From IMG/VR virus record IMGVR_UViG_3300023174_000134, positions 17,501-81,500 of that record: a DNA stretch of 64,000 bases; one strand, written 5' to 3'. A program made the position numbers and the translations under genes. The stretch comes from a virus. This document shows, one piece after another, positions 22,431-62,472 of this stretch. Below the pieces are notes generated by a model. That model searched no databases and was not told the origin of the DNA. It saw only the letters and a program-made list of their open reading frames with translations. Numbering within the stretch: position 1 is the first letter of the stretch; each line of letters starts with the position of its first letter.

Positions 22431-23008
22431 ATTTTTATGTCCTTTTTCATTGTTACTAAATCTGATTGACGTTTATAAAATATATGCCTGCCAATTTGTG
22501 TAGTCTTTGGCAATCCCCATTGAGGATTAACATAATCTGCATGATAGTATGTGGCACCTTTTGTAATATCTGCCATGTTTTCGTAATTCATTAAAACATA
22601 AACAGCTACTTCTCTAACGCTATTATACAATGAAGTGTGTATAATTGTCAACCTTTTAGAGGTAAACATTGAATCGCACATCCATGAGAATTGGCAAATT
22701 GTGTTACCATTAATCACCGTTTTTTGCTTTACCACACCACAAACATCTGAGCCATAGTTTCCTGAGGCTAAACGATTGAGTGTAACAAGTGCAACGGCAA
22801 TTTGACCATCTTTTGATTCGTGGCCTGCTTCAAAATAGATATTCTCTGCTAAACAATCAACTTGTTTCTGTGTTGGTTTAGAAAGTGCTTTGTAACCAAC
22901 GCTTGCTGGTATGTAATACTTACTTTCACTTGAATGAACATTCACAGCGGTTACCGCTAAAATAATTACTGATAAAATTATACTTAAAAGTATCGTTTTA
23001 CTTCGCAT
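22427..23008 (-). CDS. SleB/CwlJ-type cell wall hydrolase with signal anchor
   Basis: The protein has 193 residues from the ATG at 23008, chosen because AAAGGAG lies four bases upstream; a frame-open ATG at 23053 would add 15 residues without a ribosome site. Residues 5-23 (TILLSIILSVIILAVTAVN) form a signal anchor. ENIYFEAGHESKDGQIAVAL and VTLNRL contain the Glu of the Hydrolase_2 (SleB) family, and CQFSWMCD and ATYYHADYV are further family blocks. This enzyme class cleaves peptidoglycan and may serve as endolysin or for cell-wall remodelling. Confidence 0.85.
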   Translation of the reverse strand: MRSKTILLSIILSVIILAVTAVNVHSSESKYYIPASVGYKALSKPTQKQVDCLAENIYFEAGHESKDGQIAVALVTLNRLASGNYGSDVCGVVKQKTVINGNTICQFSWMCDSMFTSKRLTIIHTSLYNSVREVAVYVLMNYENMADITKGATYYHADYVNPQWGLPKTTQIGRHIFYKRQSDLVTMKKDIKI

Positions 23009-24943: not shown

Positions 24944-25075
24944 TTACTTCTTCTTTTCTTCTTTCTTCACTTCAGCTTTTGGTGCATCTTTCTTTGCTTC
25001 TTCTTTCTTAGCAGGTGCTTGAGCAAATGCTGTTACAGCGAAAGTTGCAGCTACGAGAGCGATTAGTTTTTTCAT
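24944..25075 (-). CDS. 43-aa secreted Lys/Glu/Ala-rich protein
   Basis: A short ORF with a textbook signal peptide: MKKLIALVAATFAVTAFAQA, with an AFA-type cleavage site, then AKKEEAKKDAPKAEVKKEEK and KK. Small proteins of this form are common in Burkholderiales genomes, and a transfer from the host is likely (inference). It starts at 25075 after TTGGAG and follows the tmRNA coding piece directly, so the two probably share a transcript from the promoter at 25721. Confidence 0.75.
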   Translation of the reverse strand: MKKLIALVAATFAVTAFAQAPAKKEEAKKDAPKAEVKKEEKKK

Positions 25076-25232
25076 GTTAAACTCCAATTAAAGTTGATAA
25101 TATAATCAGTTTGTCGCTATCAATCAGACCAAGATATCAAAGCAAGGATATCGGGAACTGTACCAAGCAAAGACTTACTAATTTGTGGTGAGTATTCTGT
25201 TACGAGGAACTCACCAAAACCCTAAGCAGTTT

Positions 25233-25265
25233 TTAGGCTGCTAATGCGAACTTATTATCGTTTGC
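25233..25265 (-). other. tmRNA proteolysis-tag reading frame (ANDNKFALAA-stop)
   Basis: Ten codons from the GCA resume codon to TAA. The ALAA end is the canonical ClpXP/ClpAP recognition sequence, and the AND...FALAA layout resembles betaproteobacterial tags such as ANDERFALAA as I recall them. The frame is embedded between an A-rich single-stranded stretch and the downstream pseudoknot, as in functional tmRNAs. Confidence 0.93.
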
Positions 25266-25348
25266 GTTTAATTTAATTTAGTTATTACGCCTACTCTGGC
25301 GACTCTCCATTGTTCTAATGATTGCCATGTCGAATCTATAACACCCCC

Positions 25349-25418
25349 ATCAAAAGTATATTGCCACAACTATAATGTGTGTTTGCTACCGATAACTCGG
25401 TTCGTCAATATACTTTTG
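25349..25418 (-). repeat. Inverted repeat of the tmRNA intervening segment
   Basis: CAATATACTTTTG (25406-25418, plus strand) and CAAAAGTATATTG (25351-25363) are perfect 13-bp inverted copies. In the minus-strand RNA they extend the acceptor stem past CCA and join the 3' and 5' tRNA-like ends through the spacer. A further small hairpin CCGA-GTTA-TCGG lies inside. This is the precursor loop expected to be removed when a permuted tmRNA matures. Confidence 0.9.
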
Positions 25419-25469
25419 GTGGAGGTGGGCGGATTTGCACCGCCGTCCACAACAACTTTCAAACAACTT

Positions 25470-25589
25470 CTACGAATGCTTAGCTACAAAAACAAGAACC
25501 ACAAAAATTACTAATGCAATTGCACACGCACCAGTATAAAATGCAAAACTTCTAATCTTCTTTTCTTTTACACAATTCTTATCTGGCAT
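25470..25589 (-). CDS. 39-aa membrane peptide ending inside the tmRNA acceptor piece
   Basis: An ORF from ATG 25587-25589 to TAG 25470-25472: a charged start MPDKNCVKEKKIRSF, then a membrane segment FYTGACAIALVIFVVLVFVA and KHS. Its last codons GTAGCTAAGCATTCGTAG are also the 5' part of the tmRNA acceptor piece. Its ATG overlaps the stop of the preceding 41-aa ORF (TAATG). Whether it is translated is unproven, but start/stop coupling and the membrane segment favour a real gene. Confidence 0.55.
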   Translation of the reverse strand: MPDKNCVKEKKIRSFAFYTGACAIALVIFVVLVFVAKHS

Positions 25590-25714
25590 TATAGATAATT
25601 CCCTAAAAACCAAATGATAAAAAGTAAAGATAGGCCACCAGCTAATATCTTTAAGGCACCAATCTGTCTTTCATTTTGCTCTGGTGTGCAGAGCTTCTTC
25701 CAATATTTATTCAT
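25589..25714 (-). CDS. 41-aa membrane peptide heading the tmRNA transcript
   Basis: MNKYWKKLCTPEQNERQIGA is followed by a membrane segment (LKILAGGLSLLFIIWFLGNY). The ATG lies six bases after the TATAAT of a consensus promoter, so the mRNA would be leaderless. No family was recognised. It is the first of four elements (two peptides, tmRNA, secreted peptide) in one probable transcript. Confidence 0.55.
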   Translation of the reverse strand: MNKYWKKLCTPEQNERQIGALKILAGGLSLLFIIWFLGNYL

Positions 25715-25720
25715 ACAGCT

Positions 25721-25749
25721 ATTATACACCTATTTTAGTTATTTGTCAA
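25721..25749 (-). promoter_or_regulatory. Consensus sigma70 promoter upstream of the tmRNA transcript
   Basis: On the minus strand TTGACA (25749-25744), 17 bases, TATAAT (25726-25721): a perfect host sigma70 consensus with optimal spacing. It overlaps the 3' end of the PD-(D/E)XK gene and reads toward the two peptides and the tmRNA. It lacks the hairpin of the repeated cassettes further along. Confidence 0.9.
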
Positions 25750-26409
25750 GTAATATTTGGCAATATACTGTTTTAATTGAGGCAGGTAAGGTTGTTTATC
25801 CCTCACAAATATCTGTGGTTTGCCTTCTTCAACGGCAATTGCCACTACCAATTTATTTATTGGTTTGCCTGTTATTTCACCAAACATTTCTGCATATGCC
25901 GAGCATTGCATAAAGTAATTGAGAATACCATCTTCCCATTTCTCTTTACTAGAGGTCTTAAAGTCAATGACTGCCAATTCTCCATCCCACTCAGCGATAC
26001 AGTCAACACGGCCAGCGATTTTCAGTCCATCAGAATATAGTGCCTGTTCTAATGAATAGATTTTACCAATATTTTGGTCTAACTCTGGCCTCAACTGTAA
26101 AAACAATTCTTTAATGTTTGGCATCATTGTTTGCATCCTCAATTCATTCATCTCATTGAGTAAATACTTTTCACAAACGGTGTGTAATGCGGTACCACGC
26201 CTTGATGCCTTACCAGAAACTTTATTGGCTTCTTCATCACCCACACGAGCACGCCATTCTAAGATAGCTTTCTTATTATAGGTTGACAATACGGTTGTAA
26301 CCGATGGGTATGAATTACCATTCGGTGTTTTGTATTGTCTACCACTTTCTGTTGTAACTGCTTCTAAATCAAAATCTAATTCAGGTAATTTAATGTGCTC
26401 AAATGTCAT
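25735..26409 (-). CDS. PD-(D/E)XK-family exonuclease
   Basis: The protein has 224 residues. NSYPSVTTVLSTYNKKAILE, SRRGTALHTVCEKYL (Glu/His helix), and the catalytic block GRVDCIAEWDGELAVIDFKT at about 133-152 with D-ExK-type geometry (Asp135, Asp149, Lys151) define a Cas4/RecB-like nuclease of the phage type. The final QCSAYAEMF helix supplies the Q/Y motif. It may act in recombination or DNA degradation. It is tightly packed with the 108-aa gene upstream. Confidence 0.85.
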   Translation of the reverse strand: MTFEHIKLPELDFDLEAVTTESGRQYKTPNGNSYPSVTTVLSTYNKKAILEWRARVGDEEANKVSGKASRRGTALHTVCEKYLLNEMNELRMQTMMPNIKELFLQLRPELDQNIGKIYSLEQALYSDGLKIAGRVDCIAEWDGELAVIDFKTSSKEKWEDGILNYFMQCSAYAEMFGEITGKPINKLVVAIAVEEGKPQIFVRDKQPYLPQLKQYIAKYYLTNN

Positions 26410-32606: not shown

Positions 32607-32734
32607 ATTATACACGAACCAAGGCAGGTGTCAAGGGGTTTGGCAACTATTTTTGGGTTTGTTGCTTCCACGCAACACCCGTAAGCTCTTGATTCCATTG
32701 ACTTTTTGTAAGCTCTTGATTCCATTGACTTTTT
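32607..32734 (-). promoter_or_regulatory. Early promoter cassette A with duplicated upstream block
   Basis: Reading on the minus strand: two tandem 27-bp copies of a block containing CAATGGAATCAAGAGCTTAC (32734-32708 and 32707-32681), hairpin GTTGCGTGGAAGCAAC (32676-32661), TTGACA (32634-32629), 16 bases, TATAAT (32612-32607). It drives the 262-aa gene. It is the only cassette in which the upstream block is duplicated. Confidence 0.9.
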
Positions 32735-33868: not shown

Positions 33869-34444
33869 TTACAAAATATGGTCTGCTACGCCAAATTCAA
33901 CCAATTCTTCAGCCGTCAAGTAAACATCACTTGCTGGTAGAAGTTTGGCTTTTACTTTACTTGGTACTAGACCTGTTGCTTCTGTTAAAATATCAACCAT
34001 ACGCTTATTCAAATGTTCGGTTTCTTTCATCGCAGCTTTGATGTTATGATATTTGTCATCCATAGAATCGGTAAATTGGTGACACATAATACTGGTGTTT
34101 TTTGCGACATAGCGTTCACCTTTATCACCAGCAGCGAATATTAGAAAGGCTGCACTCATTACATTACCAATTGCAATAGTGCGAACCACGAAATTAGAAT
34201 TTTGCATTACATCAATTAAACCAAAGGCATCGGTCAAACTACCGCCAGTTGAATTAATATAAATTGTTAGTATTTTATCTGGATTGGAATTGTCCATGTT
34301 TTCATAGAGCAACCAACGGATAGCCTTCTCAATATTTTCATCATCAATTTCACCCATTAAAAAGTGGGTGTGATTTTTAAGTAAACCAAGACCAATGATA
34401 TCTTCGGCATCAATCACCGAATCGTCAAGTTTTTTATTTGTCAT
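33869..34444 (-). CDS. clpP: ClpP-like serine protease
   Basis: The protein has 191 residues, the size of ClpP (about 195). ILTIYINSTGGSLTDAFGLI is the oxyanion region, IAIGNVMSAAFLIFAAGDKG holds the catalytic Ser, and TSIMCHQFTD the catalytic His. The C-terminal ending YLTAEELVEFGVADHIL is standard. No ATPase partner is seen in the window, so it may work with host ClpX/ClpA. Together with the tmRNA tag it suggests phage investment in ClpP-linked proteolysis (inference). Confidence 0.88.
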   Translation of the reverse strand: MTNKKLDDSVIDAEDIIGLGLLKNHTHFLMGEIDDENIEKAIRWLLYENMDNSNPDKILTIYINSTGGSLTDAFGLIDVMQNSNFVVRTIAIGNVMSAAFLIFAAGDKGERYVAKNTSIMCHQFTDSMDDKYHNIKAAMKETEHLNKRMVDILTEATGLVPSKVKAKLLPASDVYLTAEELVEFGVADHIL

Positions 34445-47790: not shown

Positions 47791-47840
47791 ATTATACACG
47801 TTCCAAGGCAATTGTCAAGGGGCTGTTGTTTTTAAGCAAC
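47791..47840 (-). promoter_or_regulatory. Early promoter cassette F
   Basis: Minus strand: hairpin GTTGCTTAAAAACAAC (47840-47825), AGCCCC, TTGACA (47818-47813), 16 bases, TATAAT (47796-47791), GGTTTAT, ATGATG. The sequence from -10 to ATGATG is nearly the same as after cassette G. Confidence 0.9.
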
Positions 47841-48100: not shown

Positions 48101-48153
48101 ATTATACACGATCCGAGGCAAATGTCAAGCCCTCGCTAAGTCATTGATTCCAT
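48101..48153 (-). promoter_or_regulatory. Early promoter cassette G (no hairpin)
   Basis: Minus strand: AATGGAATCAATGACTTAGC (48153-48134), GAGGGC, TTGACA (48128-48123), spacer TTTGCCTCGGATCGTG, TATAAT (48106-48101). The upstream block is present but the GTTGC hairpin is missing, so the parts of the cassette can be separated. Confidence 0.85.
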
Positions 48154-56943: not shown

Positions 56944-57648
56944 TTATTTCCTATTAATTTTTGCTAATTTCAAATAACTTAGTGTTTTAATCCAAAACCA
57001 ACCCATGTCAAATTCAAACCATTTTTCAGATAGTTTTGCACTTGCTGGTTTATTATGATGGTTATTATGTAGTTCTTCACCACCAATAATTAGACCCATT
57101 GGTATAATGTTTTTAGATGTGTCGTTTGTTTCTGTGTTACGATAACCCCAATAATGGCCAACACCATTGACTACACCTGCAGCCCAAAATGGAATCCAAG
57201 CCATCTGTATCAACCACATAACAATACCCCATCCGTGAAATAGATAGGTTTCAATAATCAATAATGCTATTACGCCTACAAGGCTATACTTTGAGTATAT
57301 ATTCTTCTCAATCCAATCGTCAGGTGTTCCTTTGCCGTATGCTTCAACCATTAATTTATCTTTTGATGCTTCGTGATATAGAAATGCACCACCAAATAAT
57401 ACACGCCAAATACCAAATATCTTTGGTGAGTGTGGGTCACCTTTTTGGTCGGTCATCTGATGGTGTTTACGGTGTATAGCAACCCATTGCTTGGTGACCA
57501 TGCCTGTTGTAAGCCATAGCCAAAATCGTATGAGATGTTCTAATACAGGATTAAATGTTACTGCTCGGTGTGCTTGACTGCGATGGAGATACATTGTAAC
57601 ACAAAGAATGGTGATGTGGGTCATCACCAATGTGTAGAGAATTAACAT
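56944..57648 (-). CDS. Membrane fatty acid desaturase (acyl-CoA/acyl-lipid delta-9 type)
   Basis: The protein has 234 residues. The three histidine boxes are present in order: HRSQAHR (about 22-28, HxxxxH), HRKHH (about 59-63) and HNNHH (about 198-202, HxxHH). Hydrophobic segments flank them (VMTHITILCVTMYL, LVGVIALLIIETYLF, WLIQMAWIPFWAAGVV). The length is shorter than bacterial enzymes (about 260-400) mainly at the N-terminus. The gene sits between NrdB and the secreted nuclease, with TAATG coupling to NrdB. It would introduce a double bond into host membrane lipids. Confidence 0.88.
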   Translation of the reverse strand: MLILYTLVMTHITILCVTMYLHRSQAHRAVTFNPVLEHLIRFWLWLTTGMVTKQWVAIHRKHHQMTDQKGDPHSPKIFGIWRVLFGGAFLYHEASKDKLMVEAYGKGTPDDWIEKNIYSKYSLVGVIALLIIETYLFHGWGIVMWLIQMAWIPFWAAGVVNGVGHYWGYRNTETNDTSKNIIPMGLIIGGEELHNNHHNKPASAKLSEKWFEFDMGWFWIKTLSYLKLAKINRK

Positions 57649-62443: not shown

Positions 62444-62472
62444 ATTATAACAAAATACTACTGAATTGTCAA
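62444..62472 (-). promoter_or_regulatory. Consensus sigma70 promoter of the primase operon
   Basis: Minus strand TTGACA (62472-62467), 17 bases, TATAAT (62449-62444), CCTATATT, ATG. A perfect sigma70 consensus without the cassette hairpin. It reads through primase, nrdA, the Fe-S carrier, nrdB and the desaturase as a possible single early transcript. Confidence 0.92.

Follow-up and report, generated by a model that had tools for sequence, protein, structure and literature searches.

tmRNA is the RNA that frees stuck ribosomes, and ribosome rescue is a housekeeping function of the host. That phages can carry such a gene in two pieces is established: a report of 2022 described a two-piece tmRNA in the T4-like phage Melnitz and counted 53 such RNAs across phage genomes, of which 50 came from marine or aquatic samples; it proposed that they serve either to keep the host machinery running or to degrade host proteins (PMC9004378). 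A further study listed 79 tmRNA sequences from bacteriophages, covering every form, and introduced the covariance model RF04321; it also mentions phage DS6A, whose tag-less tmRNA-like gene is reported to block the endogenous tmRNA (PMC11915505). The permuted phage tmRNA gene of the preliminary description, which is the locus considered here, is therefore not unprecedented, two-piece genes of phages having already been published (PMC9004378).

The window, by which we mean the whole 64,000-nucleotide stretch of viral DNA that was analysed, makes up most of an 81.5-kb virus record that is itself a fragment. Its PHROG matches, among them a baseplate wedge, a tail tube cap and a gp32-like SSB, are those of a T4-type myovirus, as had been supposed, and its DNA similarity to annotated phages is confined to short matching pieces. 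Like Methylophilales phage Melnitz, it is a T4-like aquatic phage with a permuted gene and an early-type promoter upstream, and the Melnitz authors also suggest roles at the ribosome or in proteolysis (PMC9004378). However, the ssrA of Melnitz falls with those of Alphaproteobacteria and is reportedly under glutamine riboswitch control (PMC9004378), whereas the window copy groups with beta-type bacterial sequences and has no Rfam match to a riboswitch family nearby.

Permuted tmRNA genes that had not been annotated were found in Pelagibacter phage HTVC008M (L003), Synechococcus phage BUCT-ZZ01 (L002) and Stenotrophomonas phage BUCTxx99 (L004). That of HTVC008M (tag ANFNEYALAA) lies, as in the window, downstream of a PD-(D/E)XK nuclease gene, at a distance of about 400 nt, but its best match within the clan is the alpha_tmRNA model and not the beta model. 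BUCT-ZZ01, a Kyanoviridae phage, has a gene that passes the beta model and also encodes a ClpP-like protein; it differs in its tag, ANDETFSMALAA, and in the distance to ClpP of about 41 kb. The same phage has an ARAGORN tRNA with anticodon CTA, for the amber codon (L002:1621-1696; labelled Pyl), a possible amber suppressor. With the betaproteobacterial tmRNA of RF01850, the window copy shares the gene order, the position of the tag and the pseudoknot after the stop codon, and it departs from that family in its A/G55 pair, its long branch and its mosaic coding piece.

Our preferred reading, to which we would give a probability of roughly 0.8 on sequence grounds, is that the gene specifies a functional two-piece tmRNA, structurally of the betaproteobacterial type, which has been passed down within a lineage of aquatic T4-type phages. 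The minus strand carries a complete and intact circularly permuted gene. Infernal aligned the whole of RF04321 (model positions 1-213) to window positions 25477-25233 with 121.7 bits (E=3e-23, gathering score 47), and the beta_tmRNA model RF01850 matched with 120.6 bits (cutoff 84, E=3.5e-36); ARAGORN called a permuted gene at 25142-25509 on the minus strand with the tag ANDNKFALAA. The features expected of RF04321 are present, namely an acceptor piece 5' of the coding piece, an alanine-type acceptor stem with G3-U70 and CCA, and a tag reading frame with a resume codon, a stop and a degron-like end. The precursor also folds better than its shuffles (z = -2.9). The claim of a phage-encoded permuted tmRNA, which was to fall if there were no covariance-model hit or no pairing between the pieces, has therefore held, since both Rfam permuted models score above cutoff, ARAGORN agrees and the two pieces covary. 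The gene is real and, as far as can be judged from its sequence, probably functional.

All parts of the gene lie on the minus strand. The acceptor piece (about 25417..25477, from the RF04321 alignment and pairing counts) comprises the 5' strands of P2, the T-arm with the loop UGCAAAU, the 3' strand of the acceptor stem and an encoded CCA, and its 3' end reads CTCCACCA at 25417. The coding piece (25187..25348, from ARAGORN, Rfam and pair counts) comprises the acceptor 5' strand GGGGGUG, the D-loop, the resume region, the tag, the pseudoknot and a 3' hairpin; its outer limit of 25187 is an estimate, for which ARAGORN gives 25142 and Rfam 25159. Between the two lies an intervening segment of exactly 68 nt (25349..25416) that should be excised, its two ends making a perfect 13-bp stem stacked on the acceptor stem: the inverted repeat (25351-25363 / 25406-25418) begins in the CCA and is continuous with that stem, and a repeat search returned one 22-nt arm pair, 91% complementary, at the spacer ends. 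Such end-stem runs average 8.6 in 205 viral copies among the matches listed, versus 4.1 in shuffles. The acceptor stem itself pairs at seven of seven positions (25348-25342 with 25421-25427) and includes G3-U70, the alanine determinant. The tag frame, GCA AAC GAT AAT AAG TTC GCA TTA GCA GCC TAA (25233..25265), is read by ARAGORN as ANDNKFALAA*, and across its stop codon runs an H-type pseudoknot (25221..25241, from sequence and pair counts), in which GCAG/CUGC is interleaved with CCUAA/UUAGG and which is kept in most of 45 relatives among the matches listed. In spacer, repeat, acceptor stem, tag and pseudoknot alike, the preliminary description had read the locus correctly. Viral tags among the matches listed end in AA in 199 cases out of 208, and in ALAA in 142.

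Relatives were gathered with two pattern scans of viral contigs that returned at least 120 loci each, and ARAGORN reported at least 211 permuted tmRNAs in a set that joined the scan loci to the window gene and three annotated phage records. Since G1-G4, U6, G7, C69-C72, CCA and parts of the D-loop were specified in the search patterns, these positions are excluded as evidence of conservation. Acceptor pair 5:68, which the pattern leaves free, is standard in all 205 viral homologs among the matches listed and occurs there in five forms (GC 138, AT 43, CG 19, TA 3 and GU 2). Pairs of P2 that join the two pieces covary as well, 25450:25327 being CG in 33, GU in 6, UG in 2 and UA in 1 of the 45 nearest sequences. 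In the same 45, the P2 sub-helix GUUU/GAAC is poorly retained, which would count against a functional two-piece reading, though this region also aligns poorly.

Coupling extends to the loops. Wherever the D-loop position preceding G-N-TTCGAC is G, T-loop position 55 is U, and wherever it is A, position 55 is G; none of 276 sequences mixes the two states. On the tree, there are nine changes at each position, seven of them in the clade that holds most beta-type bacterial sequences. By analogy with G18-U55 of tRNA, the two bases would form the elbow contact, and the coupled switch offers a natural experiment on the L-shape of tmRNA where no covalent link joins the pieces. The window copy has A in the D-loop with G55, whereas all beta-type bacterial tmRNAs compared have G/U55, a feature seen in the sequences compared and not an Rfam criterion for RF01850. 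Because of this difference, the copy is beta-type by model and tree but not a typical betaproteobacterial tmRNA.

The gene had also been credited with a consensus promoter of its own. The promoter stands, as a sigma70-type TTGACA-N17-TATAAT that matches at 12 of 12 positions (25721..25749, minus strand), 212-244 nt upstream of the tmRNA; exclusive ownership does not, because two small ORFs (25714-25589 and 25589-25470) stand between it and the tmRNA, so that it would drive a short transcription unit rather than the tmRNA alone. The first of these ORFs, right after the promoter, has 41 aa (25589..25714, minus strand, listed from an upstream GTG). The second has 39 aa (25470..25589, minus strand, listed from an upstream TTG), shares one base with the first and runs into the 5' end of the acceptor piece, where it stops. 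Each encodes one hydrophobic, membrane-like segment, and an ORF corresponding to the second ends the same way in the aligned sequences of L014 and L115. Perfect TTGACA-N(16-18)-TATAAT sites number six in the window, against 0.08 expected; all are on the minus strand (22622-22651, 25721-25749, 32607-32634, 47791-47818, 48101-48128 and 62444-62472), and three of them share a TGCCT(T/C)GG-like spacer.

The upstream neighbour is a PD-(D/E)XK nuclease gene (25735..26409, minus strand, PF12705). A nuclease of this kind lies within 1.5 kb upstream on the same strand at 104 of 208 viral tmRNA loci among the matches listed, of which 152 have 1.5 kb of upstream sequence. Seen from the nuclease, 63 loci extend far enough downstream, and in 19 of these ARAGORN calls a permuted tmRNA on the same strand at no more than 1.5 kb, a lower bound, as it misses copies found by Infernal, for example in the record behind L430. 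Downstream of the tmRNA is a gene for a small lysine-rich peptide of 43 aa with a signal-peptide-like start (24944..25075, minus strand), a 95% identical copy of which directly follows the tmRNA in L065. Elsewhere in the window, a fatty acid desaturase gene (56944-57648, minus strand, PF00487, 8e-16) adjoins the phage ribonucleotide reductase genes.

The way in which such an RNA would work can be read partly from its sequence. One precursor contains the acceptor piece, the spacer and the coding piece in that order, with the spacer ends and acceptor strands forming one long stem, and the mature pieces can pair through the acceptor stem, P2 and the D-loop/T-loop contact; G3-U70 and the encoded CCA are there, and the tag, with its ALAA degron end, is followed by the pseudoknot. 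From known tmRNA biology, host tRNA-processing nucleases would excise the spacer, host AlaRS would charge the acceptor piece, and host SmpB would bring the charged RNA to ribosomes that have stalled on broken mRNA of phage or host, after which the stalled protein would receive the ANDNKFALAA tag and go to host ClpXP. Host SmpB is probably used, since SmpB was detected in none of 25 tmRNA-bearing phage records (the window's 81.5-kb fragment and 24 others) by a search that was positive in all four bacterial genomes. A working tmRNA that relies on SmpB, AlaRS and ClpXP of the host is favored by its intact charging determinants, by a tag ending in ALAA and by compensatory change that has continued, and the ribosome-rescue role first suggested for the gene is probably correct, with tag, charging determinants and pseudoknot intact. 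As to the benefit, our guess is that it would most likely be extra ribosome-rescue capacity during mRNA degradation and the shut-off of host transcription.

One alternative, which takes up the ClpP link drawn in the preliminary description, is that tmRNA and ClpP act as a module, the phage providing both the tag and a protease subunit and so redirecting the proteolysis of tagged host or phage proteins. The window does contain a gene for a ClpP-like serine protease of 191 aa (33869..34444, minus strand, PF00574, 2.9e-34), a member of the ClpP (S14) family that keeps the Ser-His-Asp triad in an alignment to 3q7h; it is 8.4 kb from the tmRNA and outside its unit. Among 31 tmRNA-bearing records, 19 have ClpP, usually within about 11 kb, and in most of 30 two-gene viral loci among the matches listed it lies 0.4-3 kb downstream on the same strand. 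However, detectable ClpP is absent from the other 12 records, and the comparison is with four records lacking tmRNA, all partial, one of which has ClpP, which is too few to establish an association. ClpP within 4.5 kb downstream was seen at 2 of 11 loci with tmRNA and 0 of 32 without, in counts made with ARAGORN, which misses some tmRNA copies. The gene order common to related phages would explain such closeness without a functional link, and we consider the module unlikely. A more distant ClpP-like gene is found 376 nt downstream of the permuted tmRNA in L136, L185 and L205.

A second alternative is that the phage recently picked up a host ssrA, by imprecise excision or recombination, possibly as a passenger without selected function. 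The beta-type Rfam match is in its favor, as is the likeness, in our impression, of the neighbouring 43-aa lysine-rich peptide to small proteins secreted by betaproteobacteria. Against this, the nearest relatives among the matches listed are phage copies, at 0.17 substitutions/site, with the nearest bacterium at 1.1. On the tree, the window copy groups with L014, L040 and L108 (support 0.98), within a larger clade (support 0.94) that includes 42 sequences of the betaproteobacterial set and is apart from 29 alpha-type sequences; this grouping and the passing of the beta model place the gene in RF01850. No close copy was found in 399 genomes of one betaproteobacterial order, that of Cupriavidus, which yielded short conserved fragments only. 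The A/G55 pair, the compensatory changes that go on within the phage clade and the upstream neighbour common to about half of the viral loci among the matches listed are likewise at odds with a host pick-up, which we judge very unlikely and which, as the main explanation, was rejected on the tree and the 399-genome search. The tree suggests instead that the window tmRNA sits in a phage-only clade and is not a recent copy of a host gene. An alphaproteobacterial origin, suggested by the A/G55 pair, was also rejected, as it falls among beta-type sequences both on the tree and by Rfam model.

Further evidence on descent comes from the gene itself. Over its first 213 nt the similarity is to L014, at 100% in the acceptor and 90% in the 5' part of the coding piece; the remainder outside the tag instead resembles L102 at 80-87%, compared with 29-49% for L014. 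Because of this change of affinity, the gene looks like a recombinant of two phage tmRNA lineages, with a joint at approximately 25297.

That the RNA is a decoy or inhibitor of host trans-translation is highly improbable. DS6A does provide a precedent, in a tmRNA-like RNA reported to block the tmRNA of the cell, but here the reading frame of the tag, its stop codon, the ALAA end, the pseudoknot and the charging determinants are all intact. Tag ends and structure are also retained across relatives, when a decoy would need no tag.

For the functional tmRNA that we prefer, the wider setting is a population of at least about 200 further two-piece tmRNAs in viral contigs, and the phage relatives include cyanophages, pelagiphages and others. 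It is possible, and we put it forward tentatively, that T4-type aquatic phages maintain a long-lived tmRNA lineage of their own, which often occupies a single genomic position adjoining a PD-(D/E)XK nuclease gene, that it recombines between phages and undergoes repeated coupled double changes in D-loop and T-loop, and that it is kept since infection creates many ribosomes stalled on cut mRNA. A beta-type phage clade, a frequent neighbour gene, a mosaic structure, the coupled D-loop/T-loop switch and the lack of detectable SmpB are additions that we did not find in the literature on phage tmRNA in a non-exhaustive search. Phage copies of ribosome-rescue genes have so far mostly been viewed as curiosities. 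Yet Infernal found a tmRNA in six of 10 larger records that had been picked for gp32 or the nuclease, including all four of at least 90 kb, the remaining 25 records having been selected for having one; because the 10 were chosen by other genes, this suggests that tmRNA is a common, selected gene in one large aquatic phage group.
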